In this document: one piece after another, positions 1-20,132 of the stretch | How positions within the stretch are numbered: the stretch's first letter is position 1 | How the letters are laid out: each line of letters opens with the position of its first letter | Assembly (NCBI GenBank): GCA_947459825.1 | Contig: CANHFH010000010.1 | Location: forward strand, 1-41,749 | From: Pseudomonadota bacterium | Lineage (GTDB): Bacteria > Pseudomonadota > Gammaproteobacteria > Steroidobacterales > Steroidobacteraceae | Direction: 5' to 3' | DNA: 41,749 bases | The notes under the pieces: generated by a model | What the model was told of the DNA's origin: nothing | Databases searched by the model: none | Seen by the model: the letters and a program-made list of their open reading frames with translations, nothing else | Translations under genes and position numbers: made by a program

Positions 1-875
1 AGGAAGTTGATCGAGGAGATCGACTGCGGATCCGTGCCCGTGAAGTCGAAGATGCACTTATCGCCGTCGCGCCACATGCTGCACTTGATGCGATACGGAC
101 CCATGTTCAGGCCGTCGTCGCAGATGTAGTCCTCGAAGAACTGCTTGGTCTCCGGGACGTTCTGGCGGATGAGCGCCCGCATCGCACGCTTGTTGCGGTC
201 GAGCATGGCGTCCATGGCCGAGTAGAACACGTCGTCGCCGAAGCGCTCGGCGATCTCGACGCAGCGCGCCGCCGCGGTGCGCAGCGCCGCCGTGATGGCG
301 TTGAAGTCCGAGAGGTTCCAGTGCGGCAGACGGCAGTTGTGCAGCACGACGCGCAGCACATCCTCGTTGAGCTTGCCGGCCTTGTAGATCTTGGTGGGAG
401 GCACGACGATGCCGTCCTCGTAGATCGTGGTGCCGTCGGTCGGCAGCGACCCCGGCACCTTGCCGCCGACATCGGTCATGTGACCGAACATCGCCGACCA
501 GGCGATGATGCGGCCCGCACGGTAGATGGGCATCAGCATCAGCCAGTCGTTGGCGTGGCTGATGGCGCCGTTGACGGAGTACGGGTCGGAGGTGAGGAAG
601 ATGTCGCCTTCCTCGACGGTGCCGTCGTACCCCTGCATGAAGCCCCAGATGAAGGAGCCGAACTGGCCGACGACCATCTTGCCGTCGGTGTTGGCGATCA
701 TGGGGAACTCGTCATGCTGCTCGCGGATGCCTGGCGACATCGCGGTGCGGAACAGCACGGTATCCATCTCGTAGCGCGCGTTGCGCAGCGCGCTCTCGAT
801 GATGTCGATGGTGACGGTGTCGACCTTCGTCTTCTTGAAGGCCTTCTTGTTGCGCTGGATGATCGTTGCGGGCAT
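1..875 (-). CDS. hyuB: Hydantoinase/oxoprolinase family subunit B (partial, 3' end outside window)
   Basis: The visible 291 residues are the N-terminal half of the HyuB/acetone-carboxylase-alpha family. They begin MPATIIQRNKKAF and include the family stretches ESALRNARYEMDTVLFRTAMSPG and SDPYSVNGAISHANDW (about residues 28 to 110). HyuB proteins work with HyuA in ATP-dependent opening of hydantoins or 5-oxoproline, or in ATP-dependent carboxylation of ketones. The start is the ATG at 873-875, four bases after the HyuA stop, so the two subunits are co-translated. The stop lies beyond position 1. The exact substrate cannot be told from sequence. The family call is firm; the neighbouring carbamoylsarcosine-amidase-like gene favours a hydantoin-type substrate. 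Confidence 0.9.
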   Translation of the reverse strand, partial: MPATIIQRNKKAFKKTKVDTVTIDIIESALRNARYEMDTVLFRTAMSPGIREQHDEFPMIANTDGKMVVGQFGSFIWGFMQGYDGTVEEGDIFLTSDPYSVNGAISHANDWLMLMPIYRAGRIIAWSAMFGHMTDVGGKVPGSLPTDGTTIYEDGIVVPPTKIYKAGKLNEDVLRVVLHNCRLPHWNLSDFNAITAALRTAAARCVEIAERFGDDVFYSAMDAMLDRNKRAMRALIRQNVPETKQFFEDYICDDGLNMGPYRIKCSMWRDGDKCIFDFTGTDPQSISSINF

Positions 876-879
876 GGAC

Positions 880-2970
880 TTACTTCCTCTTGCCGGCGGC
901 CTTCTTGGGCGCCTTGTAGTTGTCCGGGTAGATCAGGATGCAGCTCGACTTGTCCACATGGCCGGTGTGCTTCGGCAGGATGACGGTGGTCGAGTCCATC
1001 TCCATGACGATGGCGGGGCCGCGGACCTTGTTGCCGGCCTTGAGCTTCGCGCGGTCGTAGACGACGGCGGTGACGTCCTTGCCGTCCATGAACGCCTTCT
1101 GCTTGCCGACCACGGCGGCCTTCGGATCGGAGCCGCCGGCCGCGAGCGGCTGACGCTTGATCTTGATGCCCTGCCCTTGCACCGAGGCGCGCAGCGTGAC
1201 GAGCTCGTGCTCGAGCGGCAGCGCGAAGGTGAACAGGCGCTTGTGCTCGGCATCGAACTTGTCGGCGACGGCCTTGAGGCCCTTCTTCTGGAGCTCCGCG
1301 AGGTCGACCTCGACCGACAAGCGCAGACCCTGGCCGTGATAGCGCAGGTCGACCTGGTAGGCCGTGGTGATCTCGGACTTCTTGACGCCCTCCGCCTCGA
1401 GACCCTTCGACGCATCTGCGGCGAGCGCCTTGAGGATCTTCTCGATCTCCTTGGCGCTCGTCTCGCTGAACTTGCGCACATAGGTGCGGGCGCGCTCGTC
1501 GCGCACCGCGGTCGTGGCATCACCCAGCGCGCAGAGGACGCCCGGTCCCGGCGGGATGATCGACGGCCAGGATCCGAGGAGGCGCGACAACGCATTGGCG
1601 TGCAGGGGGCCCGCGCCGCCGAACGCTATCAAGGCGTAGTCGCGCGGGTCGTAGCCCTGCTCGACCGACACCAGGCGCAGCGCACCGACCATGTTCTCGT
1701 TGACGATGTTGTAGATGCCTTGCGCGGCCTGCTTGGTGTTGAGGCCGAGCGCATCGCCGACCTTCTTGACGGCGGTCTGCGCGAGCTCGCGGTTGAGCAC
1801 CATATCGCCGCCGAGCTTCTGCATCTCGGGGAGATAACCCAGCACGATGTTCGCATCGGCGACCGTGGGCTCGGTTCCGCCGCGGTTGTAGGCCGCAGGA
1901 CCGGGATCGGCGCCCGCCGACTGCGGACCGACGCGCAGCGCCTTGGTGAGCTCCGGCACGTGGGCGATCGAGCCGCCGCCCGCACCGACCGTGCGGATGT
2001 CGACCGACGAGGCGCGCACGGTGACATCGCCGACCGTGGTCTCACGACGCAGGCGCGGCTGACCGCCCTGGATCAGCGCGACGTCCGTCGAGGTGCCGCC
2101 GACATCGACGGTCAGCAGGTTCGGGAAGCCCGCCTGCACCGCGACCCACAGCGCGCCCGTGACGCCGCCTGCGGGGCCGGACATCAGCAGGTTGACCGGG
2201 TACTCGGCGGCCGACGCGGCCGAAGCGAGACCGCCGTCGGAGCGCAGGATGTGCAGCTTGACGTCCTTCGCGACCTTGTCGAGCTTCGCCTTGAGGTTGC
2301 GGACATACCTGTCGACGCGCGGACGGACATAGGAGTTGGCGACCGTGGTGACGGTGCGCTCGTACTCCTGCATCTCCGGGACGACATCGGACGAGAGCGA
2401 CACCGGCGTATCCGGCAGCTCCTCGCGAGCGATCTCGCGCACGCGCTGCTCGTGGGCGGGGTTCGCGAAGGAGTTGATGAGCGAGACGGTGAGGGCCTCG
2501 ATCTTCTGCGCCTTCAGCGAGCGCAGGCTCTTGCGCAGCGCCTCCTCGTCGAGGCCGCGCACCACCTCGCCTTTTGCGCTCACGCGCTCATCGGCCTCGA
2601 TGGTGCACGCGAGCGGCGCCATCGGGAGCGACTTGTTGTAGATGATCCAGCCGCCCAGGCCGCCCGGCACGTAAGAACGCGCGATCTGCAGCACCTGTCG
2701 GTAGCCCTTGGTGGTGACGAGACCGCAGCGTGCACCGGTGCCGGTGAGCACGGTGTTGGTCGCGACCGTGGTGCCGTGCATCACATGGTCGATCTGCTTC
2801 GGATCGATGCCGGCGCGTTCGCAGACGCGCTGGATGCCGTTGAGCACGCCGACGGACTGGTCGGCAGGCGTGGAAGGGACTTTGGCGGACCAGGTCTGGC
2901 CCGACTTCTCATGGACCAGCAGCAGGTCGGTGAACGTGCCGCCGACATCTACACCGAGACGATATGACAT
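880..2970 (-). CDS. hyuA: Hydantoinase/oxoprolinase family subunit A
   Basis: This 696-residue protein is a HyuA/5-oxoprolinase N-terminal half homologue, of the usual length for the stand-alone A subunit. The N-terminal actin-like ATPase fold shows GVDVGGTFTDLLLV near residue 5 and a second phosphate motif DVGGTSTDVAL near residue 280; the family stretch HGTTVATNTVLTGTGA is near residue 75. It should bind ATP and phosphorylate the ring amide while subunit B completes hydrolysis. The ATG at 2968-2970 was chosen because an A/G-rich ribosome-binding site (AAGGGGGG) sits just before it and the family start motif follows at once; the open frame runs further upstream to 3057 without support. A sigma70-like promoter lies at 3010-3038. 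Acetone/acetophenone carboxylase subunits are close relatives and cannot be excluded. Confidence 0.93.
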   Translation of the reverse strand: MSYRLGVDVGGTFTDLLLVHEKSGQTWSAKVPSTPADQSVGVLNGIQRVCERAGIDPKQIDHVMHGTTVATNTVLTGTGARCGLVTTKGYRQVLQIARSYVPGGLGGWIIYNKSLPMAPLACTIEADERVSAKGEVVRGLDEEALRKSLRSLKAQKIEALTVSLINSFANPAHEQRVREIAREELPDTPVSLSSDVVPEMQEYERTVTTVANSYVRPRVDRYVRNLKAKLDKVAKDVKLHILRSDGGLASAASAAEYPVNLLMSGPAGGVTGALWVAVQAGFPNLLTVDVGGTSTDVALIQGGQPRLRRETTVGDVTVRASSVDIRTVGAGGGSIAHVPELTKALRVGPQSAGADPGPAAYNRGGTEPTVADANIVLGYLPEMQKLGGDMVLNRELAQTAVKKVGDALGLNTKQAAQGIYNIVNENMVGALRLVSVEQGYDPRDYALIAFGGAGPLHANALSRLLGSWPSIIPPGPGVLCALGDATTAVRDERARTYVRKFSETSAKEIEKILKALAADASKGLEAEGVKKSEITTAYQVDLRYHGQGLRLSVEVDLAELQKKGLKAVADKFDAEHKRLFTFALPLEHELVTLRASVQGQGIKIKRQPLAAGGSDPKAAVVGKQKAFMDGKDVTAVVYDRAKLKAGNKVRGPAIVMEMDSTTVILPKHTGHVDKSSCILIYPDNYKAPKKAAGKRK

Positions 2971-3009
2971 GCGCCCCCCTTGGGCTAAAGTCTGAGCGTG
3001 GAAAAACGG

Positions 3010-3038
3010 AGTATCCGACCTCGCCGCTTCTCGCGCAA
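3010..3038 (-). promoter_or_regulatory. Putative sigma70 promoter of hyuAB
   Basis: On the minus strand TTGCGC (3033-3038) is followed after exactly 17 bases by GATACT (3010-3015). The predicted start near 3003 leaves a short leader of about 30 bases before the hyuA ribosome-binding site. Matches to consensus are moderate, so this is an inference from spacing and position. Confidence 0.45.
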
Positions 3039-3044
3039 TGCGTC

Positions 3045-3066
3045 GATGTCCATCCACTTGGACATC
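3045..3066. promoter_or_regulatory. Perfect 8-bp inverted repeat upstream of the hyuA promoter
   Basis: GATGTCCA (3045-3052), six bases, TGGACATC (3059-3066). The dyad is centred about 52 bp upstream of the predicted hyuA start, the position of many activator sites. It also lies just past the end of the HMG-CoA-lyase-like gene and could be a stem-loop there, but no T-run follows on the minus strand. Confidence 0.4.
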
Positions 3067-3119
3067 CGGGCCGATGCGTCACGCAGCGGTCGGTATGGGC
3101 GAGGCGTTCGGCGCCGCGA

Positions 3120-4034
3120 TCAGGCCGCTTGCGACGAGGGCTTCGGGAAACTGCCGGCCTTCACCAGCATGCCGGGCACCGGGCGACCCAAAGCCTGTTG
3201 CAGCCACTCCCCGGTCGCGATCAGGCGCTCGAGGTCGACGCCCGTGGCGACACCCGAACGCGACAACAGGTAGACCAGATCCTCGGTGGGGATGTTGCCG
3301 GTCGCGGCCGGCGCGAACGGGCAGCCGCCGATGCCGCCACAGCTCGAATCCAGCGTCGCCACCCCGGCTTCCACCGCCGCATAGGCGTTGGCCAGACCCG
3401 TGTTGCGGGTGTTGTGGAAGTGGGCGCGCAGCCGGACTCCGGGCAGGGCCTCACGGACGCGACCGAAGATCTCGGCGACCTGGGCGGGGACGCCGACGCC
3501 GATGGTGTCCGCGAAAGCGATCTCGTAGGGACTGCCCTCCGCCACCCGACGCGCGACCTCGATGACCCGACCGACGGGCATCTCGCCCTCGAATGGGCAA
3601 CCGAACGAGGCGCCGATCGTGATGGTCGCGCGGATGCCGGCCGCCTTCGCCTCACGAGCGATCTCTAGCCAGGCGGCGACCGATTCGTCGGTGCCCACGC
3701 CCTGGTTGCGGCGGTTGAAGGTGTCACTGGCGACCACCGCCATGCCGATCTCGTTGCAGCCCGCCGCGACGGCGCGGTCGTAGCCTTTGCGGTTGAGCAC
3801 GAGCCCGATATAGCTCACGCCCTCGCGGCGGCGCAGGCCGGCGAGCACCTGCTCGGCGTCGGCCATCTGCGGGACTTTCTTGGGGTTGACGAAGCTCGTG
3901 ACCTCGACCCTCTTCAACCCCGAGTCGATCAGCCGCTCGATGAACTCGACCTTGGCTGCGGTCGGGACGACTCCCGGCTCGCTCTGCAGGCCATCGCGGG
4001 GACCGACTTCGACGATCTCGATGCTGCGGGACAT
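3120..4034 (-). CDS. HMG-CoA lyase-like enzyme (DRE-TIM metallolyase)
   Basis: A 304-residue TIM-barrel lyase that cleaves a 3-hydroxy-3-methyl-acyl-CoA type substrate. All key residues of human HMG-CoA lyase are present at a constant offset of 28: Arg13 and Asp14 (GPRDGLQ), Glu44, His205 and His207 (HFHNT), catalytic Cys238 in GIGGCPF, and Asn247. However the human-type sequence after the histidines (DTYGQALAN) is replaced by NTRNTGLAN, which suggests a subfamily that may use another acyl-CoA. The start is backed by AAGGAG five bases upstream. Its neighbours are a CoA-transferase (divergent) and hydantoinase subunits (downstream, same strand), so a role in breaking a CoA thioester made by that transferase is likely. 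Leucine catabolism genes are absent nearby, so I do not assign mvaB. Confidence 0.88.
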   Translation of the reverse strand: MSRSIEIVEVGPRDGLQSEPGVVPTAAKVEFIERLIDSGLKRVEVTSFVNPKKVPQMADAEQVLAGLRRREGVSYIGLVLNRKGYDRAVAAGCNEIGMAVVASDTFNRRNQGVGTDESVAAWLEIAREAKAAGIRATITIGASFGCPFEGEMPVGRVIEVARRVAEGSPYEIAFADTIGVGVPAQVAEIFGRVREALPGVRLRAHFHNTRNTGLANAYAAVEAGVATLDSSCGGIGGCPFAPAATGNIPTEDLVYLLSRSGVATGVDLERLIATGEWLQQALGRPVPGMLVKAGSFPKPSSQAA

Positions 4035-4079
4035 GCTCGCTCCTTGTCACCCGACGCCCGGGACGGCGCGCCAAGGCCG

Positions 4080-4088
4080 ATTCTAGCA
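4080..4088 (-). promoter_or_regulatory. Putative extended -10 promoter of the lyase gene
   Basis: The minus strand reads TGCTAGAAT here, an extended -10 (TGn then a 5/6 match to TATAAT). No good -35 is present 17 bases upstream, as is common with extended -10 promoters. The predicted start is about 38 bases before the lyase ATG. Confidence 0.4.
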
Positions 4089-4112
4089 ACCCTCCCTCCC
4101 GGTCGGCGGCGA

Positions 4113-4148
4113 CCTTGACCGCGCACGCGCCAGCCTTGACCGCGCACG
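4113..4148. repeat. Two 15-bp direct repeats, 21 bp apart, in a divergent promoter region
   Basis: CCTTGACCGCGCACG occurs at 4113-4127 and again, identical, at 4134-4148. The period of 21 bp equals two helical turns, so both copies face the same side of DNA. The second copy contains the -35 of the CoA-transferase promoter. The pair sits between two divergent genes of the same cluster, which suits a shared regulator site. Confidence 0.55.
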
Positions 4149-4164
4149 AGTGGGTGGGTACAAG
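4136..4164 (+). promoter_or_regulatory. Putative sigma70 promoter of the CoA-transferase operon
   Basis: TTGACC (4136-4141), 17-base spacer, TACAAG (4159-4164). The predicted start near 4171 is about 36 bases before the ATG at 4207. The -35 lies inside the second copy of the 15-bp direct repeat. Confidence 0.5.
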
Positions 4165-4206
4165 TTCGCCCGGTCCCATCCTCCTCATCCTGCCGAGGTA
4201 AGCAGA

Positions 4207-5421
4207 ATGTCCGTCGACCCGAACTTCAAACGCGGCCCGCTCTCCGACCTGCGCGTCATCGAGATGGGCACCCTGCTGGCGGGCCCCTTCTGTGGGCAGT
4301 TGCTGGGGGACATGGGAGCCGAGGTCATCAAGGTTGAGCCGCCGGGTCAGGGCGACCCGATGCGCAACTGGGGACGCCAGAAAGCCGGTGAACCCTCGCT
4401 GTGGTGGCCGGTGGTGGCCCGCAACAAAAAGGCCATCACGCTGGACATGCGCCAAGAGGAAGGTCAGAGCATTCTCAAGGACTTAGTCAGGAATGCTGAT
4501 TTTTTACTTGAGAATTTCCGACCCGGTACGCTCGAGAAGTGGAACTGCGGTTACGAGGAGCTCGCCAAGATCAACCCGCGACTGATCATGATCCGGGTGT
4601 CGGGGTACGGTCAGACGGGCCCCTACTCGCACCGCGCCGGGTTCGGCGCCATCGGCGAGGCGATGGGTGGCATGCGCTATGTGGTCGGCGACCCCTCCAC
4701 TCCGCCCTCGCGCATGGGCATCAGCATCGGCGATGAATTGGCCGCCACCTTCGCCTGCCTCGGGGCCCTCTCCGCCCTGCACTACCGCGAGAAGACGGGC
4801 CACGGTCAGGTCGTCGACTCGGCGCTCTACGAGGCCGTGCTCGCGATGATGGAGTCGCTCATCACCGAGTACGACAAGATGGGCTATATCCGCGAGCGCA
4901 CCGGCGCCATCCTGCCGAACGTCGCGCCGTCGAACGTCTACAAGACCAGCGACGGCCTGGTGCTCATCGCCGCCAACCAGGACACGGTGTTCGGCCGGCT
5001 CTGCGACGCGATGGGTCAGAAGGAGTGGCCGAAGGACCCTCGCTTCGTGAACCACCAGGCCCGCGGCACGAACCAGAAACTGCTCGACGGTCTCGTCGAG
5101 GCATGGACGCAGACGCTGACCACGCGCGAGGTGCTCGAGGCGATGGACAAGCACGGCGTCCCCGCCGGGCTCATCTACCGCGCGCCCGACATGCTCGAAG
5201 ACCCGCACTTCAAGGCCCGCAACGCCATCGTCCAGACCAAGCACCCGTACTTCGGCGACCTCAAGATGCAGAACGTCGCGCCGAAGCTTTCGGCGACGCC
5301 GGGTGGTATCCACTCGGCCGCGCCCACCGATCTCGGTCAGCACAACGACGAGGTGTACGGCAAGCTGCTCGGGTTCTCGGCGGAGCGTCTGGCGGCGCTG
5401 CGCGCGTCCAAGGTCATCTGA
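4207..5421 (+). CDS. Family III CoA-transferase (CaiB/BaiF type)
   Basis: A 404-residue cytosolic enzyme that moves CoA between carboxylic acids. The N-terminal motif RVIEMGTLLAGPFCGQLLGDMGAEVIKVEPP and the middle motif IRVSGYGQTGP are typical of the family. The catalytic aspartate that forms the acyl anhydride is Asp176 in ISIGDELAAT, matching Asp169 of CaiB. The ATG at 4207 was preferred to the upstream ATG at 4150 because GAGGT (4195-4199) is seven bases before it and the homologous region starts here. It heads a plus-strand run with the hydrolase, VOC and methyltransferase genes. The acyl substrate is not known; the lyase next door suggests a hydroxy-dicarboxylate. Confidence 0.92.
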   Translation: MSVDPNFKRGPLSDLRVIEMGTLLAGPFCGQLLGDMGAEVIKVEPPGQGDPMRNWGRQKAGEPSLWWPVVARNKKAITLDMRQEEGQSILKDLVRNADFLLENFRPGTLEKWNCGYEELAKINPRLIMIRVSGYGQTGPYSHRAGFGAIGEAMGGMRYVVGDPSTPPSRMGISIGDELAATFACLGALSALHYREKTGHGQVVDSALYEAVLAMMESLITEYDKMGYIRERTGAILPNVAPSNVYKTSDGLVLIAANQDTVFGRLCDAMGQKEWPKDPRFVNHQARGTNQKLLDGLVEAWTQTLTTREVLEAMDKHGVPAGLIYRAPDMLEDPHFKARNAIVQTKHPYFGDLKMQNVAPKLSATPGGIHSAAPTDLGQHNDEVYGKLLGFSAERLAALRASKVI

Positions 5422-5434
5422 CGGTGCGTGCAGC

Positions 5435-6067
5435 GTGAGCGAGTCTCTGCAGGACAACTACGCCCGCGGCGGTTTCGGCCAGTCGATGCCCTGGGGGCGT
5501 CGCCCGGCGCTGCTCGTCATCGACTTCGTCCGCGCGTATCTCGTCCCCGGTTCGCCGCTGTATGCGGGCGTGGAGCAGGCTCGCGTCGATTGCGAGACCT
5601 TGCTGCGGGCCGCGCGCAAGGCCGGCATCCCGGTGCTCCACACCCGCGTCGAGTTCCAGCCCGGCGGTCGCGATGGCGGTGTGTTCTTCCGCAAGTTGCC
5701 GGCGCTCGCCTGCTTCGAAGCCGGGCGTCATCCGGAGCTCGCGGCGTTCGCCGAGGGCCTCGAGCCCGTCGTCGGTGAGACCGTCATCACCAAGCAGTAC
5801 GCGAGCGCGTTCTTCGGCACCTCGCTCGCCTCGACGCTGACCGCGCTCGGCGTCGATACGCTGCTCATCGCGGGACTCTCTACCAGCGGCTGCGTGCGCG
5901 CCAGCGCCGTCGACGCCTGCCAGCACGGCTTCGTGCCGGTGGTGGTGCGCGAGGCGGTCGGTGACCGTGCGCCGGGCCCGCATGAGGCCAACCTCTTCGA
6001 CCTGCAGGCGAAGTACGCCGAAGTCGCTCCGCTCGCCACCGTTCTCCAATATCTCGGAGCCCCATGA
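5435..6067 (+). CDS. N-carbamoylsarcosine amidase-like cysteine hydrolase (isochorismatase family)
   Basis: A 210-residue alpha/beta hydrolase with the cysteine-hydrolase triad Asp30 (LLVIDF), Lys120 (ITKQYASAFFGT) and Cys153 (STSGCVRASAVDA). The N-terminal pattern (GFGQSMPWGRRPALLVIDF), KQYASAFFGT and the DRAPGPHEANLFD stretch near the end are characteristic of the N-carbamoylsarcosine amidase/maleamate amidase branch rather than of nicotinamidase. That enzyme releases ammonia and CO2 from a carbamoyl-amino acid, the product of ATP-dependent N-methylhydantoinase, so its presence beside hyuAB is coherent. No ATG fits; GTG at 5435 is the likely start, with only a weak ribosome-binding site. 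Its stop overlaps the next ATG (ATGA). Confidence 0.88.
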   Translation: MSESLQDNYARGGFGQSMPWGRRPALLVIDFVRAYLVPGSPLYAGVEQARVDCETLLRAARKAGIPVLHTRVEFQPGGRDGGVFFRKLPALACFEAGRHPELAAFAEGLEPVVGETVITKQYASAFFGTSLASTLTALGVDTLLIAGLSTSGCVRASAVDACQHGFVPVVVREAVGDRAPGPHEANLFDLQAKYAEVAPLATVLQYLGAP

Positions 6068-6957
6068 GCACGCTAGGCCCCATCAGCTGCGTCACGATCG
6101 CCACGCTCGACGTGCAGCGCATGATCGACACCTACCATCTGCACCTCGGCTACGAGCTGGTCGATCACGGCAGGATCAGCCCCGCACAGGCGCGGCTATG
6201 GGGGCGGTCGGGGCTCGCGGGGCGACGCTATGCCTCGATGCTGCCGGGTGGTGACGGACCGACCTTCATCCGATTCGTGGAGAGCCGTGTGCCGGCCGAC
6301 TATGTGCCTTTCCGACACATGGGTTGGAATGCGGCCGAACTCATGGTGCAGGACACCGACGGCATCGCGGCCCGGTTGGAGGGCTCACCGTTCCGCATCA
6401 TCGGTCCGCCGGCCGACCTGTCCTTCTCCGACAAGATCCGCGCCATGCAGGCGCTGGGACCCGCGCAGGAATCGATCTACCTGACCTCGTTCAAGGAGAA
6501 GATGGCGGAGTTCGATACGCCGGAGGCGCGGCATTATGTGGATCGCGTGTTCATCGTCATCCTCGGTGGACCGTCGGTGAAGGTGGTCAACGACTTCTAC
6601 CATCGACATTTCGGCGTCGCGATCTCGCCCGTGATGCCGGCGGTGATCTCCGTGCTGTCCAACGCCCAAGGCTTGCCGGCCGACACGCCGCACGACCTCG
6701 CGGCGCTCGCGCTTCAGGGTCAGTCCTTCATCGAGGCCGACACCATGCCGTCAGCGACGCTGCCGCGCGGCGGACTCGAGGGCGAACTTCCGCCCGCCAT
6801 CGCGATGGTCAGCTTCGGCGTCGATCGGCTCCCCGAGGGACTCGACTACCTGGCATCGCCCGTGGCGTTGCCGGAAGCGCCCTACCACGGTCGCCGCGTC
6901 GCGGTGGCGGTCGGCGCTGCCGGGGAGTGGATCGAGCTCATCGAAAAGGGCGGCTGA
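6064..6957 (+). CDS. VOC-superfamily protein with two glyoxalase/dioxygenase-like domains
   Basis: 297 residues with two betaalphabetabetabeta units: the first at about 5-135 (begins GPISCVTIATLDVQRMIDTYHLHLGYE), the second at about 155-295 (begins RVFIVILGGPSVKVVNDFYHRHFG and ends GEWIELIEKGG). VOC proteins include glyoxalase I, extradiol dioxygenases, epimerases and binding proteins. Candidate metal ligands are not complete in an obvious way, so catalytic function is uncertain. It overlaps the hydrolase gene by four bases (ATGA), so it is translationally coupled to it and is probably part of the same pathway, or serves as a ligand-binding accessory. I do not recognise a characterised orthologue. 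Confidence 0.75.
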   Translation: MSTLGPISCVTIATLDVQRMIDTYHLHLGYELVDHGRISPAQARLWGRSGLAGRRYASMLPGGDGPTFIRFVESRVPADYVPFRHMGWNAAELMVQDTDGIAARLEGSPFRIIGPPADLSFSDKIRAMQALGPAQESIYLTSFKEKMAEFDTPEARHYVDRVFIVILGGPSVKVVNDFYHRHFGVAISPVMPAVISVLSNAQGLPADTPHDLAALALQGQSFIEADTMPSATLPRGGLEGELPPAIAMVSFGVDRLPEGLDYLASPVALPEAPYHGRRVAVAVGAAGEWIELIEKGG

Positions 6958-6964
6958 CCGTCGG

Positions 6965-6989
6965 GCCCGTGCGCTGTGCGGCCACGGGC
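6965..6989 (+). other. Possible stem-loop between VOC and methyltransferase genes
   Basis: GCCCGTG (6965-6971) and CACGGGC (6983-6989) form a perfect 7-bp stem with an 11-base loop, just after the VOC stop. No T-run follows, so a Rho-independent terminator is unlikely; it may be an mRNA end-processing or pausing structure. Confidence 0.3.
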
Positions 6990-7034
6990 ATCGAGCCGGC
7001 TGACGGCGTGGCAGACGGTGGGTAGGATGCCCTC

Positions 7035-8228
7035 ATGAGCGCATTCAAGCACCATGACATGCTCCCTACCCCGGACCACGACGAGCAGGCGCGCCAGGAC
7101 TTCGTGGCATCGCTGCGCGGGCATCTGTCGGGGCGGTTGATGCCCGGTGCCTACCAGATCTACGAGCGGCGTGTGGCCCCGGCGCTGCGCGCCGAACTCG
7201 GCCGTGAACCCGACGAGACCGAAGTGCGCCGCGCGATGACCCGCGAGCCCTACTACCAGTTCTGGAGCGCGATGCAGCGGCGCAGCCAGGAGATGCTCTG
7301 GGAGTCGGTGATCGATCCGACGGAGCGCGAACTGCCGGCGCTCATCGATCGCGCGAAGTCACGCGCCAAGCCGGCCGTGAAGGCGCCGGGGGCGCCGAAG
7401 GCGTTGAAGACATCGAAGGAGCCGAGGGCGGCGCGGGGTCGGCGGCGTGGCAGCCTGCGCCTCGACCCGTCGTTGCCCCTGCCCCGCTACCACGCGGCGG
7501 TCGACATCCATCTGCAACCGGGCGCTTACCACACCGACTCCACCGCCGACGATGTCGCGGCCGGCGTTATCTACGACAAGGGCCTCGACCTCTACATGGG
7601 CGGTGCGCTCGGCGCCGAGAACGGGCTGATGGGCGAGACGCTGGTCGCGTATGTGAAGGAGCGGCACCCCGCCCTTCGGCCGCGCCGGGTCCTCGACATG
7701 GGTTGTGCGATCGGCAACAGCACCGTCGTCTGGGCGCGCGCCTTCCCGGAGGCCGAAGTCCACGGCATCGATGTCGGTGCGCCGGTGCTGCGCTACGCGC
7801 ATGCGCGGGCGGAAGGCTTCGGTGCCCCGGTCCACTTCAGCCAGCAGAACGCCGAGGGCACGGACTTCGGGTCCGGCAGCTTCGATCTCGTCGTCTCGCA
7901 CATCATGCTGCATGAGACCTCCAAGCCCGCGCTGCAGCGCATCTTCGCCGAGTGCCGACGCCTGCTGCGTCCGGGCGGGCTGATGCTGCATCTCGAGATC
8001 CCGCGCGGTCACACGGTGTTCGAGCAGTTCATGCACAACTGGGAAAGCTACAACAACAACGAGACCTTCAGCCGCTACATGACGCACATCGACCTCGCCG
8101 CCGAGGCCGTCAAGGGCGGCTTCGCGCGCTCCGAGGTCCGGGTCGATGAGTTCGCGATGCAGATGTCCGTGGCACAGATGAACTACGCCGAGAACTTCAT
8201 CTGGAAGATCCTGGCGGCTGAACGCTGA
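7035..8228 (+). CDS. Class I SAM-dependent methyltransferase with an extra helical N-terminal domain
   Basis: 397 residues. Residues 1-110 form an alpha-helical domain rich in Arg and Glu, followed by a Lys/Ala/Pro-rich basic linker (111-140). The Rossmann methyltransferase core starts near 200: motif I RVLDMGCAIGNST (218-230), acidic motif II GIDVG with Asp246, motif IV about 292-300 (FDLVVSHIMLHE) and the post-motif LRPGGLMLHLE. A Tyr/Asn-rich stretch (YNNNETFSRYM) lies near 340. TAGGA seven bases before the ATG supports the start. The TGA stop overlaps the next gene's ATG by one base, so the two are coupled. The substrate is unknown; a small molecule made by the neighbouring genes is plausible, but the basic linker also allows a protein or nucleic-acid partner. 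Confidence 0.82.
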   Translation: MSAFKHHDMLPTPDHDEQARQDFVASLRGHLSGRLMPGAYQIYERRVAPALRAELGREPDETEVRRAMTREPYYQFWSAMQRRSQEMLWESVIDPTERELPALIDRAKSRAKPAVKAPGAPKALKTSKEPRAARGRRRGSLRLDPSLPLPRYHAAVDIHLQPGAYHTDSTADDVAAGVIYDKGLDLYMGGALGAENGLMGETLVAYVKERHPALRPRRVLDMGCAIGNSTVVWARAFPEAEVHGIDVGAPVLRYAHARAEGFGAPVHFSQQNAEGTDFGSGSFDLVVSHIMLHETSKPALQRIFAECRRLLRPGGLMLHLEIPRGHTVFEQFMHNWESYNNNETFSRYMTHIDLAAEAVKGGFARSEVRVDEFAMQMSVAQMNYAENFIWKILAAER

Positions 8229-8632
8229 TGGCGCGCCGCAGGACCCCGGCGCGGAGCAAGGCCGCCCGCAAAGGCTCGACGAAGGCCGCCCCGACACCGG
8301 TCCGTCTGCCGCGGATCGCCAAAGGCAAGAAGCCGCAGTACTTCAGCGATCCGGCCATCGACAAGCTGTTGTGGATGACCATGACGCTGATGGAGGAGCT
8401 GTCGGTGGCGCGCGATCGGATCGACACCCTCGAGCGGGTGCTGGACGAGCGCGGAGTGCTACGACAGAAGGACGTCGAGGGGTACACGCCCGACCCCAAG
8501 GCCCGATCGGCGCGAGCGACACGCCGCGCGGACTTCGTCGACCGGATGATGAGAGCCGCGCAGGCCGAACTCAGCGCCTCGTCCTCCGCAGCGGACCCCC
8601 ACGAGGAGGCTCGCCGCGCGGTCGAGGGCTGA
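8228..8632 (+). CDS. Small basic protein of unknown function, coupled to the methyltransferase
   Basis: 134 residues. The first 35 are strongly basic (Lys/Arg/Ala/Pro), without a signal peptide. Residues about 45-80 (DPAIDKLLWMTMTLMEELSVARDRIDTLERVL) form an amphipathic helix with heptad spacing, probably a coiled coil. The tail is rich in Arg, then Ala/Ser/Glu. I do not recognise a family. Its start codon overlaps the methyltransferase stop (TGATG), so stoichiometric expression and physical partnership are likely, for example as a scaffold or specificity subunit. The intact codon pattern and start coupling make it a real gene. Confidence 0.75.
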   Translation: MARRRTPARSKAARKGSTKAAPTPVRLPRIAKGKKPQYFSDPAIDKLLWMTMTLMEELSVARDRIDTLERVLDERGVLRQKDVEGYTPDPKARSARATRRADFVDRMMRAAQAELSASSSAADPHEEARRAVEG

Positions 8633-8662
8633 GCCCGCGCTGGAAATCTGCGGCGGCCGCCG

Positions 8663-9913
8663 TCAGCGCGCGCGCAGCTTCCAGTAACCGGCCAACCGTG
8701 CGAGGAACGGGTCCTTGACCGCGTCGAACGCGGTCACGGCGCCGGTCTTGTCCCCGGTCTTGAGGCGCGCGACGCCGAGCGACAGGTTGGCCTCGTCGAC
8801 GGCCTTCACACCGCCCTTGGCGAGCCCACGCTCGATCGAGGCGACGGCTTCAGCAGGCTGCCCGTAGCTCAGAAAGGCCTGACCGACCCGCACTTCGGCG
8901 ACGCCGGTCTTCTGGGCAGCGGCCTCCTTGGACTGCCTCGCGAGCGAAGCACGGTCCGGGGCGGCGGCGGCCTTCGACTGCTGCAGCAGGTTGGCGGCGC
9001 CCGGCGTCGTCTTGCCCGGGCCGCCGAACTTTCCGGCAGCGATGGCGGCCTCGATGACGGCTTGGGCCTCGCCCGGATAGCCCTTCTCCATGGCGAGCGA
9101 CGCGTACTCGGCGACATCGTCGCCGCCCTTCAGGGCGCCGACCTCGTAGGCGAAACGCAGCACATTGAGGTTCTGATCGGTCGGGGCGTCGCGCATGGTC
9201 AGCAGGAACAGGTTGCCCCACGCCTCGTCGCTGGGCGCGTACGCCACCTGCTTCTCTACGGCGCGTCGGGTGCACTTGTCGTCCTTCATGCGGACACAGG
9301 CGCTCGCCCAGAGATTGAGCGGCAGATCGGGAGGCGTCTCGTTTCGCTGCTCCATCTCCGTCACCCACGGTTCGACGAAGGCCGCCACCGCGGCGTTGTC
9401 GGGGATGAGGTAGAGCGCCTGCGCGGTGAGTTGCCGCACATCACGGTTGCCGGGATCCGCCTGCGACGCACGACGCCCGAAGTCCGCCGCGCGACGGTAA
9501 TCCTTGAGCTGGTAGTTCACCTGGGTCAGCTGCCGGAGACGCAGCTTGCGCCCCTCCTCGTCGATGAAGCCGTTCGCCTCACCGACCTCGAGACCCTTGG
9601 CCAAGGCCGGTTCCGCGGCGGCGAAATTGCCGCTGCGTGCCGCGCACACGGTGCGCAGTTCGCTCACCGCATAGTCGTCGTACGGCGTCTTGTCGGGCAC
9701 GGCGTCGGTGCCCGACAGCACCGCCAGGCAGTCGGCCCACTTCTCGGCCTTGATCGCGGCCTGCGCCGCTTGAGCCTGCTTGATGATCGACTTGCTGACG
9801 GTCGGCGGCTTCGGCTTTCCACCGGACTGCGCCGCAGCGACGCCGCCTACAAAGGCCGCCGAGAGCACGATCAGGGACGACAGCGCGACAGGGTTGACGT
9901 GACGCAGGGTCAT
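8663..9913 (-). CDS. Secreted TPR-like helical-repeat protein (second of a pair)
   Basis: 416 residues. A signal peptide is clear (positive MTLRH, hydrophobic SSLIVLSAAFVGGVAA, cleavage near AAA-Q29). The mature part is a series of alpha-helical pairs with TPR-like character: YQLKDYRRAADFGRRASQADPGN near 135-155, and the C-terminal pattern YGQPAEAVASIERGL ... LGVARLKTGDKTGAVTAFDAV. Cysteines are few and scattered. It is a paralogue of the gene just upstream: both have the KSxxWxxCL stretch near 55, a late (S/A)QxFxSYGQ motif, and end ALRAQ/KLRAR. GGAGAG precedes the ATG. It is likely periplasmic; placement after tonB-exbBD suggests a role with TonB-dependent transport, as TPR proteins have in some Vibrio TonB clusters, but this is inference. 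Confidence 0.8.
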   Translation of the reverse strand: MTLRHVNPVALSSLIVLSAAFVGGVAAAQSGGKPKPPTVSKSIIKQAQAAQAAIKAEKWADCLAVLSGTDAVPDKTPYDDYAVSELRTVCAARSGNFAAAEPALAKGLEVGEANGFIDEEGRKLRLRQLTQVNYQLKDYRRAADFGRRASQADPGNRDVRQLTAQALYLIPDNAAVAAFVEPWVTEMEQRNETPPDLPLNLWASACVRMKDDKCTRRAVEKQVAYAPSDEAWGNLFLLTMRDAPTDQNLNVLRFAYEVGALKGGDDVAEYASLAMEKGYPGEAQAVIEAAIAAGKFGGPGKTTPGAANLLQQSKAAAAPDRASLARQSKEAAAQKTGVAEVRVGQAFLSYGQPAEAVASIERGLAKGGVKAVDEANLSLGVARLKTGDKTGAVTAFDAVKDPFLARLAGYWKLRAR

Positions 9914-9943
9914 GGCTGGCTCTCCGATGGATTGACGACGGCG

Positions 9944-11155
9944 TTACTGGGCGCGCAGCGCCCAGAGCTTGGCGACACGCTCGAGGCTCGGGTCGCCCTT
10001 GACGGCCTTGAAGGCCTTCGAGGCTGCGGCCTTGTTGCCGGCCTTGAGCTGGGCGAGTCCGAGGACGAGCTGGGCCTCGCCCGGGGTCTTGCCGTTGTTC
10101 TTGCGGACGGCGCGCTCGGCGGCGGCGACCGCCTGGGCGTTCTGACCGTAGCTCATGAAGGACTGCGCCACGCGCAGGTCGTCGTCGGCAGACGCGCCAG
10201 CGGCCGCTGCGCGATCGGCCGCCGCAAGGCCGGCCTTGTCCGCGGCGACGCGGGACTTGGCGGTGTTGAGCAGACGGGTGTTGCGGTCGATGTCACGCTG
10301 CTCGGTGAAGACCTTGCGTGCGAACGCCGTCTCCATGACCGACAGCGCCTCGCCCGGCAGGCCGCGCTCGAGCGCGAGCTGCGCGTGCTCGGTGTAGTCG
10401 CTGCCGCGCGAGAGGGCGCCGACCTCGGAGGCGAGGCGGAACGCGTTCAGCTGGGTCACGTCGGGGCCGCCCTTAAGCATCGACTGCATCAAGCTCGCCC
10501 AACCTTCGGGGTTCGGGTAGTAGGTGACGAGCTTCTCGAAGCCTGCGGTCTCGCAGGCCGTGTCCTTCAGCTTGATGCAGGAATTGAGGTTCAGCTGCAG
10601 GTAGTTCTGGCGCGGCGCCTGGCCGCGACGCTCAGCCTGCGAGATCAGGTCGGCGGTGAAGGCGCGCGTCGCCTTGAAGTCGCCCTGCTGGTAGAACGAC
10701 TGTGCCATCAAGGTGTTGACGTCGCCGTCGGCGAAACCGCCCTTCTGCGCCTGCCGACCGTACTCGATCGCACGCGGGTAGTTGCGGGCGTTGTAGTGCA
10801 ACTGCATCAGCGCCTTGACGCGCGCGCCCTTGTTGGACGCGTACTGGGAACCGAGGTTCGTCTCATAGGCGCGGATCGCCGTGCCGGTGTCGCCCGAGGA
10901 CAGCGCGCAGAAGCCGCGCAGTTCGTTGATCACGAACTGATCGTAGGACGACAATCCGCCCGACCCTTCCGCCTCGCGCAGCTTGCCGAGGCACTCGCCC
11001 CAACGGCGCGACTTGCTCGCGGTCTGCGCCGCAGCGAGGGTCTTCGCGACGCCCTTGCTGACGGACTGCGCATCCGCTGCCGGGGACGCCAGCATCAGGG
11101 CCGCCGCGGCGACCGCCAAACCCAGGGAACGATAGCCGACAACTCGCTTGATCAT
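9944..11155 (-). CDS. Secreted TPR-like helical-repeat protein (first of a pair)
   Basis: 403 residues from the ATG at 11155, chosen because AGAGGAA lies just upstream; the frame is open to 11206 but that extension would include the terminator. A signal peptide is present (MIKRVVGYRSLGLAVAAAALMLASPAADA). The mature protein is helical with TPR-like units, such as YNARNYPRAIEYGRQAQKGG near 140 and QNAQAVAAAERAVRKNNGKTPGEAQLVLGLAQLKAGNKAAASKAF near the end. Residues CxxLN(S)CIK...CETAG supply cysteines that could pair in the periplasm. Only 30 bases separate it from its paralogue downstream, so the two form one transcript. Function is unknown; a periplasmic scaffold linked to the TonB machinery is my inference from position. 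Confidence 0.8.
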   Translation of the reverse strand: MIKRVVGYRSLGLAVAAAALMLASPAADAQSVSKGVAKTLAAAQTASKSRRWGECLGKLREAEGSGGLSSYDQFVINELRGFCALSSGDTGTAIRAYETNLGSQYASNKGARVKALMQLHYNARNYPRAIEYGRQAQKGGFADGDVNTLMAQSFYQQGDFKATRAFTADLISQAERRGQAPRQNYLQLNLNSCIKLKDTACETAGFEKLVTYYPNPEGWASLMQSMLKGGPDVTQLNAFRLASEVGALSRGSDYTEHAQLALERGLPGEALSVMETAFARKVFTEQRDIDRNTRLLNTAKSRVAADKAGLAAADRAAAAGASADDDLRVAQSFMSYGQNAQAVAAAERAVRKNNGKTPGEAQLVLGLAQLKAGNKAAASKAFKAVKGDPSLERVAKLWALRAQ

Positions 11156-11189
11156 GGTGTTCCTCTCGATGCAGCCGTCCGGGCCGCAT

Positions 11190-11223
11190 AAAAAAATTCG
11201 CCGCATCCGGGAGGGATGCGGCG
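11190..11223 (-). terminator. Rho-independent terminator after the second exbD
   Basis: CGCCGCATCC (11199-11208) and GGATGCGGCG (11214-11223) make a perfect 10-bp stem with a 5-base loop. On the minus strand it is followed by AA then seven T (11196-11190). It lies after tonB-exbB-exbD-exbD and only 34 bases before the ATG of the first TPR-like gene, so that gene depends on read-through or on a promoter upstream of the hairpin. Confidence 0.9.
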
Positions 11224-11262
11224 AGGTGTCTGTCAGCGCCTGGCCTCGCCGGCCTGTACGCC

Positions 11263-11688
11263 TCAGTCCGCGAATTCCGCCACGTTGACGAAACCGATCT
11301 TCTTCATGCGGTTCCGCTGGGCAGCCGCCAATACACGGGCGACGACATCGTACTTCGCACGCTTGTCAGGACGCATGTGCAGTTCAGGCTGCGGATCCTT
11401 CTGGGACTCGACCCGGAAGTACTTCTCCAGCGCGTCAACACCGGAGACGGCCGTGCCGTTCCAGAGGATGGTGCCATCGAAATCGATCTCGATGGTGATG
11501 ACCTCGGGCTGCACCGGCGGCGGCGGCGCGTTGGTCGGCCGCGGCATGTCCAGCTTCACCGCGTGTGTCATCACCGGGATGGTGATGATGAACATGATGA
11601 GGAGCACCAGCATGACGTCGATGAGCGGCGTCGTGTTGATCTCGCACATCGCGCCGTCATCGGCGGAATTCCCTACGCTCATTGCCAT
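11263..11688 (-). CDS. exbD2: ExbD/TolR-family biopolymer transport protein (second copy)
   Basis: 141 residues with the standard layout: short cytoplasmic N-terminus (MAMSVGNSADDGA), one membrane helix at about 20-42 containing the essential proton-carrying aspartate in TTPLIDVMLVLLIMF, and a periplasmic domain from about 60. The periplasmic part differs clearly from the other ExbD here (NAPPPPVQPEV linker, IDFDGTILWNG). GGAAGGGGA sits seven bases before the first ATG. The gene follows exbD1 after 18 bases. In Xanthomonas campestris a second exbD follows exbD1 in the same order, so this is an ortholog-like arrangement. Together with ExbB and TonB it should harness the proton motive force for outer-membrane transport. 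Confidence 0.92.
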   Translation of the reverse strand: MAMSVGNSADDGAMCEINTTPLIDVMLVLLIMFIITIPVMTHAVKLDMPRPTNAPPPPVQPEVITIEIDFDGTILWNGTAVSGVDALEKYFRVESQKDPQPELHMRPDKRAKYDVVARVLAAAQRNRMKKIGFVNVAEFAD

Positions 11689-11706
11689 GGTCGTATCCCC
11701 TTCCGC

Positions 11707-12144
11707 TCAGCGGGAGCCGCGCATACCGCGGTCCGGTTCCGTGATGAAGCCTACCTTGACGACGCCACCGCGCTGGATGGAGTACATCACGCGGCCGATG
11801 TCCTCATAACGCGCTTCGCCGTCGCCGCGGATGTGGATCTCGGGCTGAGGATCCTTGACCGCCTCCACCTTCACGAGCTCGATGAGCGCGTTGGTGTCGG
11901 ATACCGGCGTGTTGTTCCAGTAGATCTGCCCTTCCGAGTCCACCGCCACCGTGATGTTCTCGGGCTTGGTCTGGGTCGCGATGTTCGCCGCCTTGGGCAG
12001 CGACACCTTGACCGTCTTCGTGATCACCGGGATGGTGATCAGGAAGATGATCAGCAGCACCAACATGACGTCCACGAGGGGCGTCGTGTTGATCTCGTTG
12101 ATCGGCGCTTCTTCGCCGTCCTTCGATCCCACGCTCATCGCCAT
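11707..12144 (-). CDS. exbD1: ExbD/TolR-family biopolymer transport protein (first copy)
   Basis: 145 residues. One membrane helix at about 20-43 contains the conserved aspartate (TTPLVDVMLVLLIIFLITIP); the periplasmic domain follows (ENITVAVDSEGQIYWNNTPV, then HIRGDGEARYEDIGRVM). GAGGTG precedes the ATG at a normal distance. Position: 87 bases after exbB with a strong hairpin in the gap, and 18 bases before the second exbD. It forms the ExbB-ExbD proton channel that energises TonB. The family call is secure; which of the two ExbD copies serves which transporters cannot be told. Confidence 0.93.
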   Translation of the reverse strand: MAMSVGSKDGEEAPINEINTTPLVDVMLVLLIIFLITIPVITKTVKVSLPKAANIATQTKPENITVAVDSEGQIYWNNTPVSDTNALIELVKVEAVKDPQPEIHIRGDGEARYEDIGRVMYSIQRGGVVKVGFITEPDRGMRGSR

Positions 12145-12168
12145 TTCAGGTCACCTCTGCCCGGAAGA

Positions 12169-12197
12169 GCCGGGATGGGGAGACCCCCCATCCCGGC
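12169..12197 (-). other. Strong intercistronic hairpin between exbB and exbD1
   Basis: GCCGGGATGGGG (12169-12180) and CCCCATCCCGGC (12186-12197) form a perfect 12-bp stem with a 5-base loop. No T-run follows on the minus strand, so it is not a classical terminator. It is placed to stop 3' exonucleases and protect upstream tonB-exbB mRNA, or to cause partial termination, either of which would raise ExbB over ExbD. Confidence 0.7.
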
Positions 12198-12231
12198 GCC
12201 AAGCCGGATGTTGACTGGAGTCCGTCCGATC

Positions 12232-12960
12232 TCACTTCTTCGGGGCGGCGGCGGGAGCCGACTGCGGCACCGCGACGCGCGCGCCCGTCACGATGGAGTC
12301 GTGCAGGTCGGCGGTGAAGCCGTTCAGGTCGGCCTGGATCTGCTTGTTGCGACGGCCGAGCCAGTTGTAGGCCATGACCGCCGGCACTGCGACCGCGAGG
12401 CCGATGGCGGTCATGATGAGCGCCTCACCGACGGGTCCCGCGACCTTGTCGATGCTCGCCTGCCCGGACACGCCGATCGCCACGAGCGCGTGGTAGATGC
12501 CCCACACCGTGCCGAACAGGCCGACGAACGGCGCCGTGGAACCGATGGTGGCGAGCACCGCGAGACCGCCCGACAGGTTGAGGTTGATGCTGTCGAGGGA
12601 GCGCTGCAGCGACATGGTCACCCACTCGTGCAGGCCGACGCGGTCGCCGGCGGCGCGGCTCTCGAGGTGCTGCTGCGCGCGCAGGCCGTCCTCGGCGATC
12701 GAGCGGTAGGTGTCGTCCTTCGGAAGCTTGTCGACGGCCTCACGGACCGAGCCGGCGGACCAGAACTTCTGGCCGACGAGCTTGGCGGAGGTCATGAGCT
12801 TGCGCTGGTCGAGCAGCTTCATGACGAGGATGTACCAGGTGACGAGCGACATGATCACCATGATGATCAGTGTGCCCTTGGCGACCCAGTCTCCCGCGGC
12901 CCACATGGCCTGAAGACCGAACGGATTCTCAACGACGGTGGTGGCGGCTTGGTTTTCCAT
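12232..12960 (-). CDS. exbB: ExbB/TolQ/MotA-family proton channel protein
   Basis: 242 residues. A first membrane helix lies at about 25-50 (KGTLIIMVIMSLVTWYILVMKLL), a large cytoplasmic loop follows, and two further helices at about 130-160 (GLAVLATIGSTAPFVGLFGTVWGIYHAL, the family signature) and 178-198 (GEALIMTAIGLAVAVPAVMAYN). The C-terminus is short and rich in Ala and Pro. It forms the pentameric inner-membrane channel with ExbD and powers TonB. AGAGGAA precedes the ATG. The order tonB-exbB-exbD-exbD is that of the Xanthomonas TonB system. Confidence 0.95.
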   Translation of the reverse strand: MENQAATTVVENPFGLQAMWAAGDWVAKGTLIIMVIMSLVTWYILVMKLLDQRKLMTSAKLVGQKFWSAGSVREAVDKLPKDDTYRSIAEDGLRAQQHLESRAAGDRVGLHEWVTMSLQRSLDSINLNLSGGLAVLATIGSTAPFVGLFGTVWGIYHALVAIGVSGQASIDKVAGPVGEALIMTAIGLAVAVPAVMAYNWLGRRNKQIQADLNGFTADLHDSIVTGARVAVPQSAPAAAPKK

Positions 12961-12979
12961 GATTTCCTCTGGCTTGAAT

Positions 12980-13005
12980 CGGTGCGGGCCATCTGCCCGC
13001 CACCG
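12980..13005 (-). other. Intercistronic hairpin between tonB and exbB
   Basis: CGGTGCGGGC (12980-12989) pairs with GCCCGCCACCG (12995-13005) across a 5-base loop: ten base pairs with one bulged base. No T-run follows. It resembles the stem in the next gap (same loop size, no T-run). Confidence 0.5.
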
Positions 13006-13038
13006 GGAAAGTGTTGCGGTGGGGTAGAACTGCTCGGA

Positions 13039-15735: not shown

Positions 15736-15785
15736 CGAGGGTTCCTCGTGGTGATGACTTCGGACGGTGTGGTCTTGCGGGTCGG

Positions 15786-17234: not shown

Positions 17235-17282
17235 GTTAGCCCGAAAATCCGCGGCCTCGGCAGCGACCGCGGCGCGCGTGCG

Positions 17283-17312
17283 TTGACACCCCTCTGCCCC
17301 CCGTGCTTGAAT
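17283..17312 (+). promoter_or_regulatory. Promoter of the ilvC-leuACDB operon
   Basis: TTGACA (17283-17288, perfect -35), 18-base spacer, TTGAAT (17307-17312). The predicted start falls at or next to the leader-peptide ATG at 17319, so the transcript may be leaderless. Confidence 0.65.
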
Positions 17313-17318
17313 TATCGG

Positions 17319-17514: not shown

Positions 17515-17556
17515 CGGGTCACGGAATCTTCGGATCATGCAAACGGGAGTCGAGAG

Positions 17557-20131: not shown

Positions 20132-20132
20132 C

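Follow-up and report, generated by a model that had tools for sequence, protein, structure and literature searches.

The first 8,632 nucleotides of contig C10 (the window, 41,749 nucleotides long), part of a 2.6-Mb draft genome that is 97% complete, carry a gene island that we think somewhat likely to encode a single catabolic pathway, in which ATP would drive the opening of a cyclic imide or lactam, the nitrogen would be taken off and a branched dicarboxylate would be split in the form of its CoA ester. The island comprises the two subunits of a hydantoinase-type ring opener (HyuA and HyuB), an isochorismatase-family amidohydrolase (ISOC), a family III CoA-transferase (CoAT), a lyase resembling 3-hydroxy-3-methylglutaryl-CoA (HMG-CoA) lyase (HMGL), a VOC-like protein, a methyltransferase (MT) and a small protein (P0008). 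All but the last had been named in a first-pass annotation made from the letters of the sequence; these seven genes are present where it placed them, and Pfam agrees in every case except VOC. The annotation had also asked whether the genes are conserved together in relatives. They are, and far beyond this genome.

Co-conservation of ring opening, CoA transfer and C-C cleavage

HMGL and CoAT both lie within 10 kb of HyuA at 65 of 90 loci of the HyuA clade to which the window belongs and at 0 of 20 control loci (Fisher p 7e-10; the loci are treated as independent, so that the significance is overstated). The clade loci comprise 20 of the 38 places from a survey of the class of G380, 56 of the window's order (16 + 40) and 14 phylum places, the last being all clade HyuA places outside the window's own genome in a sample of 398 genomes. 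They were selected and are counted as loci, not genomes; five genomes contribute two loci each, and related genomes are not independent. The controls are 20 HyuA places at ≤41% identity in the 398-genome sample, mostly the best-scoring ones. Two loci that are too short (L148 and L151) and proteins below half of the reference length, for example the cut isocitrate-lyase-family (ICL) protein of L187, were left out of the counts.

Within the same distance, HMGL is found at 72 of the 90 clade loci, CoAT at 70, ISOC at 61 and the three together at 51, accompanied by VOC at 32, TonB receptors at 27, LeuC at 14, the ICL family at 6 and the PrpD family at 5. At the 20 control loci ISOC occurs twice, and HMGL, CoAT, VOC, LeuC and ICL were each found at none. 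The window's order (56 loci) contributes 53 of the HMGL, 50 of the CoAT, 35 of the ISOC and 32 of the VOC occurrences. Among 16 plasmid loci, HMGL is present at 7 (one of these, L119, being a LeuA-family protein), CoAT at 8, ISOC at 9 and ICL at 7. The VOC protein, used as a query, provides a second view: 49 named loci, which divide into 26 close relatives at 61-90% identity and 23 at 32-45%. ISOC stands at all 26 close relatives, CoAT at 24, HMGL at 22, MT at 19 and HyuA at 16, and the gaps for HMGL, CoAT and HyuA are loci ended by the contig end. The 23 distant loci have no HyuA, HyuB, HMGL or close ISOC in the stretch examined, and relatives of CoAT and MT at three loci each. A chance neighbourhood is ruled out by the control loci together with the close-relative counts.

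The ring opener HyuAB

HyuA (880..2970, minus strand), the ATP-binding hydantoinase A/oxoprolinase subunit, matches PF01968 (Hydantoinase_A, 296.2 bits), PF05378 and PF19278, so that its N- and C-terminal domains are recognised beside Hydantoinase_A. Four bases separate it from HyuB (3..875, minus strand), the hydantoinase B/oxoprolinase family subunit (PF02538, Hydantoinase_B, 245.8 bits), which is truncated by the contig end. Its residues 1-291, the only ones present, are 96% identical to the full-length HyuB of a relative (L044); the remainder was searched for in the assembly and not found. Contigs of the genus often stop inside or just before hyuAB (window 1-875; L032-L036, L040, L041, L043, L049, L052), and such ends at these very conserved genes are probably an assembly effect.

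Compared with solved structures, HyuA scores highest with N-methylhydantoinase (463 bits), followed by caprolactamase (401.5 bits), the gamma subunit of acetophenone carboxylase (331.3 bits) and acetone carboxylase (242.3 bits), while the HyuB scores are 102.3 bits for caprolactamase, 99.8 for N-methylhydantoinase and 83.2 for acetophenone carboxylase. The first-pass annotation had allowed for the hydantoinase homologue being a ketone carboxylase; hydantoinase and lactamase scores exceed carboxylase scores in both subunits, which speaks against this possibility. HyuA is also far under the cut-off of the NCBIfam equivalog for CapA (550.9 versus 1000 bits). In a FastTree phylogeny of 131 sequences, rooted on acetophenone carboxylase and leaving out proteins that cover <80% of the reference, it belongs to a clade of 107 rows (support 1.0, stem 0.43). 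N-methylhydantoinase makes up the sister group together with L192_15861 and three control loci; ISOC is present at two of these loci. The window's HyuA therefore lies outside the N-methylhydantoinase clade, as its sister, and the creatinine pathway itself was rejected on this ground. Because the sister group with N-methylhydantoinase has control loci carrying ISOC, the pairing of HyuAB with an isochorismatase-fold partner is probably the older association, to which CoA transfer and C-C cleavage were added in this clade. The phylum sample contains 14 HyuA copies at 56-64% identity in 13 other genomes, and the next copies are at ≤41%. Within the genus, HyuA is 87-93% identical to the window's protein, versus 67-90% for the VOC protein (G012 aside). 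According to the accessible part of a caprolactamase report (PMC6061476), such ring openers should act in two steps, phosphorylation of the lactim form and then its hydrolysis.

Amidohydrolases and the proposed removal of the nitrogen

ISOC (5435..6067, plus strand, GTG start) is a Cys amidohydrolase of the isochorismatase family (PF00857, 118.5 bits). Its scores against solved enzymes are tied between N-carbamoylsarcosine amidohydrolase (150.7 bits) and 3ot4 (150.6 bits), which we take to be maleamate amidohydrolase. An Asp-Lys-Cys triad, presumably catalytic, is kept in 102 of 102 ISOC rows, four solved enzymes included, and the position that we assume to bind a carboxylate is Arg in 74 and Ala in 20 of these rows, the window's ISOC having Arg and the second amidohydrolase of L044 (ISOC2) Ala. 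For the residue and tree sets of both ISOC and HMGL, proteins covering <80% of the reference were left out. In the ISOC tree, the window copy falls in a clade of 54 cluster rows (97/89) with Geobacillus at its base; of the solved amidohydrolases, 1nba groups elsewhere and the other three have long branches whose places are unresolved. Similarity, the carboxylate-binding Arg and the tree of ISOC do not distinguish deamidation from decarbamoylation; removal of ammonia from a half-amide would agree better with partners of the LeuCD, ICL-family and PrpD kinds. Of the decarbamoylation step proposed in the first-pass annotation, the amidohydrolase is thus retained, whereas removal of a carbamoyl group is not supported over deamidation, ISOC being tied between both kinds.

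ISOC2 is a second isochorismatase-family hydrolase that stands next to HyuB in relatives (L044, 2199-2828) and forms a clade separate from ISOC. It is the first of the left-hand genes that the annotation had supposed to lie beyond the contig end and that can be seen in relatives; in 7 of 16 loci the large subunit of a molybdenum hydroxylase comes next, with a DASS/citrate-type carrier in L136. The large subunit has MoCoBD domains, and the 7 loci are those with a homologue of it no farther than 10 kb from HyuA. In L136 (G007, 8138-11913), ISOC2 is followed directly by the large subunit, which adjoins the carrier. The molybdenum hydroxylase and the carrier may belong to the pathway.

CoA transfer and C-C cleavage

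HMGL (3120..4034, minus strand) scores 144.3 bits with the HMGL-like Pfam family and passes NF004283, the NCBIfam subfamily for HMG-CoA lyase, with 323.6 bits versus a cut-off of 246. Taking the residue roles and numbering of human HMG-CoA lyase as our reference, we find the catalytic residues (R41, D42, E72, H233, H235, C266 and N275) kept in 79 of 79 cluster HMGLs. Relative to the human and Bacillus subtilis enzymes, the only two used for this comparison, Asp is changed to Asn in 68 and Gly to Asn in 59 of the 79 proteins beside the metal-binding HxH, and Tyr to Phe in 77 after the catalytic Cys. Because these shared changes stand beside kept catalytic residues, the sequences suggest HMG-CoA-lyase chemistry on a substrate other than HMG-CoA.

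CoAT (4207..5421, plus strand) covers PF02515 (CoA_transf_3, 419.7 bits) over its full length, positions 1-366 of 366, and is under the cut-off of all seven NCBIfam models that it matches. The top models are the succinate-glutarate (271.2 versus 750 bits), oxalate, formyl and mesaconate CoA-transferases, all well under their cut-offs; succinate-hydroxymethylglutarate CoA-transferase is a relative at 207.5 bits. Between HMGL and CoAT lies a divergent intergenic region (4035..4206) that separates two transcription units. Two promoter-like matches were found, neither of them inside this region.

In several lineages genes for LeuCD-type hydratases stand with HyuAB. An operon of LeuC-LeuD-HMGL-CoAT-ACAD (L243, contig C4 of G000, 12496-17924) is present in the genome of the window, separate from its leucine operon, and Novosphingobium THN1 holds a LeuCD-HMGL-CoAT set and HyuAB with an ICL-family gene in one 30-kb stretch, along with MT, HapK and FAD oxidoreductases. 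PrpD-family genes and the DASS/citrate-type carrier of L136 point toward a dicarboxylate intermediate. It is because of the LeuCD, PrpD and ICL-family partners, the second operon and the carrier that this intermediate is read as a branched dicarboxylate.

Spread and variants of the cluster

At an E value of 1e-200, clade HyuA turns up in half of the genomes sampled from the window's order (100 of 196; among the carriers are genomes of only about 1.4 Mb) and, for the class of G380, in 29 of 385. Haloarchaea have members of the clade too, as do plasmids from other classes and phyla. The complete set of five enzymes (HyuA, HyuB, ISOC, CoAT and HMGL) is present on plasmids of Acidiphilium multivorum, Novosphingobium capsulatum and Geobacillus; it is compact in N. 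capsulatum, with genes for a TonB receptor and for a GntR regulator next to it, and is together with LeuCD in Acidiphilium and Geobacillus.

Rubrobacter has the set without HMGL, Haladaptatus has a LeuA-family protein in the place of the lyase, and three haloarchaea (Natronomonas, Halorientalis and Natronorubrum) have an ICL-family gene there, after HyuA-HyuB-ISOC. The nearest models of the Natronomonas protein are those of methylisocitrate lyase, under their cut-offs. Over genome and plasmid loci together, an ICL-family gene occurs at 13 of 106, and 8 of these 13 are without HMGL or CoAT. Sphingomonas JE1 combines HyuAB with a methyltransferase and a small protein, as well as FAD oxidoreductases and a semialdehyde dehydrogenase, and no ISOC, CoAT or HMGL was found in the stretch examined. 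In four genomes of about 1.1-1.5 Mb (L170-L173; G060, G073, G861 and G855), HyuAB, HMGL and VOC stand with no CoAT or ISOC nearby, a minimal or different version of the cluster. Novosphingobium clusters and one gammaproteobacterium (L115, L153-L155, L126) have FAD_binding_3, Amdase-family and PuuE-like genes in various combinations, additions that are, as we take it, reminiscent of aerobic nicotinate breakdown.

A proposed pathway and its alternatives

In the proposed pathway, HyuAB would use ATP to open a small cyclic amide, either an imide or a lactam, and ISOC would hydrolyse the amide so exposed, releasing ammonia. The resulting carboxylate would be a branched dicarboxylic acid, probably a 3-hydroxy acid of the malate or citramalate type; it would arise either directly or through a hydration step, for which the genome encodes a LeuCD-type enzyme at another place. 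CoAT would make the CoA ester, which the HMGL-type lyase would split into an acyl-CoA and a 2-oxo acid. In some lineages, an ICL-family lyase acting on the free acid may replace or supplement the CoAT and HMGL steps. The VOC-like protein, MT and the small protein might act on lineage-specific side groups, lactones or isomers.

Several observations weigh against this scheme. Ten of the 90 genome loci and three of the 16 plasmid loci are without HMGL, CoAT and ICL within 10 kb (one of the ten, L187, having a cut ICL fragment). ISOC is absent within that distance at 29 of the 90; 17 of these 29 belong to families f13 and f15, and all 17 have VOC. The four f13 loci have no CoAT nearby, LeuC is within reach at those 14 loci only, and the closest characterised relative of HyuA acts on a hydantoin, not an imide. 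An alternative is a true hydantoin route, possible though rather unlikely, in which HyuAB would open a substituted hydantoin to an N-carbamoyl acid, ISOC would decarbamoylate it as in creatinine breakdown, and CoAT and HMGL would follow. N-methylhydantoinase is both in the sister group of HyuA and its best solved-structure match at 463 bits, N-carbamoylsarcosine amidohydrolase tops the ISOC matches by a hair, and, of the three controls that fall in the sister group, two have an ISOC as well. However, decarbamoylation would leave an amino acid, after which CoA transfer, LeuCD, PrpD and an ICL-family enzyme would make little sense, and the cluster ISOCs form a clade of their own without the solved amidohydrolases, whose own places in the tree are not settled.

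If HyuAB were a ketone carboxylase of the acetone or acetophenone type feeding CoAT and HMGL, ISOC would be incidental. The superfamily is the same, and the gamma subunit of acetophenone carboxylase aligns at 331.3 bits, but hydrolases outscore carboxylases in both subunits, none of the window's eight proteins is a carboxylase-type small subunit by Pfam, the gene after HyuB in relatives is ISOC2, and ISOC is near HyuAB at 61 of 90 loci. Ketone carboxylation was rejected on the scores and the missing small subunit, and we give it hardly any chance. The same holds for HMGL and CoAT as ordinary genes of HMG or leucine catabolism placed by chance beside a hydantoinase: HMGL does exceed the NCBIfam HMG-CoA-lyase cut-off, and CoAT is akin to succinate-hydroxymethylglutarate CoA-transferase (207.5 bits), whereas the 65 of 90 versus 0 of 20 co-occurrence and the active-site changes shared by the HMGLs speak the other way, and leucine/HMG catabolism was set aside because of them. 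Detoxification or tailoring of an antimicrobial N-heterocycle, as opposed to growth on it, would agree with the plasmid location in several alphaproteobacteria and Geobacillus and with the methyltransferase of some versions. It is nevertheless quite improbable, as C-C cleavage toward central metabolites, TonB receptors at 27 of 90 loci, a dicarboxylate-type carrier and retention in 1.4-Mb genomes would fit nutrient use.

As to the substrate of the proposed imide or lactam pathway, the spread of the cluster and its chemistry led us to the hypothesis, unlikely as it stands, of alkylated five-membered imides or lactams from oxidative tetrapyrrole breakdown, such as methylvinylmaleimide, hematinic acid and their kin. 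Both names occur in the literature on heme and bilirubin breakdown, so far as the available parts of it go. Dialkylmaleamates have a tendency to close their ring again, and here ATP would help: it would open a ring that otherwise recloses, the nitrogen would be recovered, and the branched maleate skeleton would be hydrated and cleaved as a CoA ester. If true, such a pathway of bacteria and archaea would be a sink for the nitrogen of chlorophyll and heme in lakes, the sea, soil and hot springs. That many lineages have the same ring opener with CoA-dependent C-C cleavage points to a common compound containing nitrogen, for which no description of the breakdown route was found. The enzymes look soluble, and a direct search for the substrate is feasible.

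Accessory proteins and flanking genes

The VOC-like protein (6064..6957, plus strand), whose gene overlaps that of ISOC by 4 bases, is not itself matched by any Pfam family. Its paralogue on contig C34 of this genome (L245; 37-39% identity) matches Glyoxalase (PF00903) weakly, at 24.7 bits versus a cut-off of 20.6, and because of this match the window protein may be called VOC-like. The paralogue lies in a second module of the genus (L245, G000:C34, 1-10234) with SDR, HapK, FAD_binding_4 and FAD_binding_2 genes, to which L247 and L248 (G007) add GST, cupin, OppC-type permease and ETF genes. This module is 31-38 kb (VOC to VOC) from the HyuAB cluster in seven genomes. Substrate clues were sought in flanking genes, namely those of the second module and the FAD_binding_3 and Amdase-family genes of Novosphingobium, and no substrate follows from them.

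MT (7035..8228, plus strand), a class I S-adenosylmethionine-dependent methyltransferase, carries an extra N-terminal stretch ahead of its Methyltransf_25 domain (PF13649, 77.7 bits, residues 219-315). Homologues are near HyuAB in Sphingomonas JE1, L126, L195, L196 and L215-L217. MT is a lineage-dependent accessory, present at 19 of the 26 close relatives and within 10 kb at 7 of the 90 clade loci, the latter an undercount since many stretches end before its place. The accessory small protein P0008 (8228..8632, plus strand), overlapping MT by 1 base, has no Pfam or NCBIfam match, and its family is not recognised. A homologue follows MT in L126, L195, L196, L215, L217 and many relatives; in L033, L034, L037, L044 and others one also stands between VOC and MT, which is not so in the window.

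Beyond the cluster, window positions 8663-13674 hold ExbD, ExbB and TonB genes recognised by Pfam and, by eye, a further gene resembling ExbD and a pair of related, repeat-rich proteins; a similar TonB/ExbB pair was seen by eye in L246 and L249. Leucine biosynthesis genes lie at 18596-23195, with leuA-like, leuC and leuD assigned by homology and a possible leuB by position only. The closest named relatives of the window are gammaproteobacterial metagenome-assembled genomes (MAGs), several titled Steroidobacteraceae and some with lake isolate names. MAG records CAMCBU01 and CAMAQZ01 (L044, L045, L079) are titled Klebsiella pneumoniae; their cluster is highly identical to that of the genus MAGs, and the titles look wrong.

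Comparison with known systems

The first-pass annotation knew of no described pathway with this gene set, and none was found in a literature search that covered few subscription papers. Literature on imides, maleimides, dimethylmaleate, citramalyl-CoA, pyrrolidone and imide hydrolysis gave background only. The enzyme families are known, and it is their combination that makes up a widely conserved pathway not found described. The creatinine route, with N-methylhydantoinase and N-carbamoylsarcosine amidohydrolase, has the same ATP-dependent opener of the HyuA/HyuB type and an isochorismatase-fold Cys hydrolase, but the window's HyuA is in its own 107-row clade, whose HMGL, CoAT, LeuCD or ICL partners are absent from the 20 controls. 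The end steps of anaerobic nicotinate breakdown act on a branched C4 dicarboxylate, with dimethylmaleate hydratase, an aconitase-type enzyme, and dimethylmalate lyase of the isocitrate-lyase family. They involve similar kinds of hydratase and lyase as the LeuCD and ICL partners suggest here, and are not known to involve HyuAB or a CoA ester. The itaconate/methylsuccinate cluster employs other lyase and hydratase families and has no nitrogen-ring entry. Its genes (ict, ich, ccl, mcd, mmgE) include a CoA transferase, a hydratase and a lyase, with glyoxalase-family, acyl-CoA dehydrogenase and PrpD genes, and the accessible part of the report describes the same CoA transfer, hydration and cleavage for a branched C5 dicarboxylate (PMC12290011).

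In Aspergillus (HxnM/HxnN), a cyclic imide is opened by an imidase and the amide removed to give a hydroxydicarboxylate, as set out in the part of the source available (PMC9304392). Imide opening and amide removal are thus shared with the pathway proposed here, and PuuE-like genes occur in some HyuAB clusters; however, the opener of the cyclic imide pathways is PuuE-related, not HyuAB, and the same part of that source mentions no CoA step (PMC9304392). Caprolactamase CapAB of P. jessenii is likewise a two-subunit ATP-dependent hydrolase of a cyclic amide, again as described in the accessible part of its report (PMC6061476), and HyuB aligns to its B subunit at 102.3 bits. It differs in that HyuA reaches 550.9 bits against the 1000-bit CapA cut-off, and in that no aminotransferase is among the window's eight proteins, where a CoA-transferase and an HMG-CoA-lyase-like enzyme accompany the ring opener.

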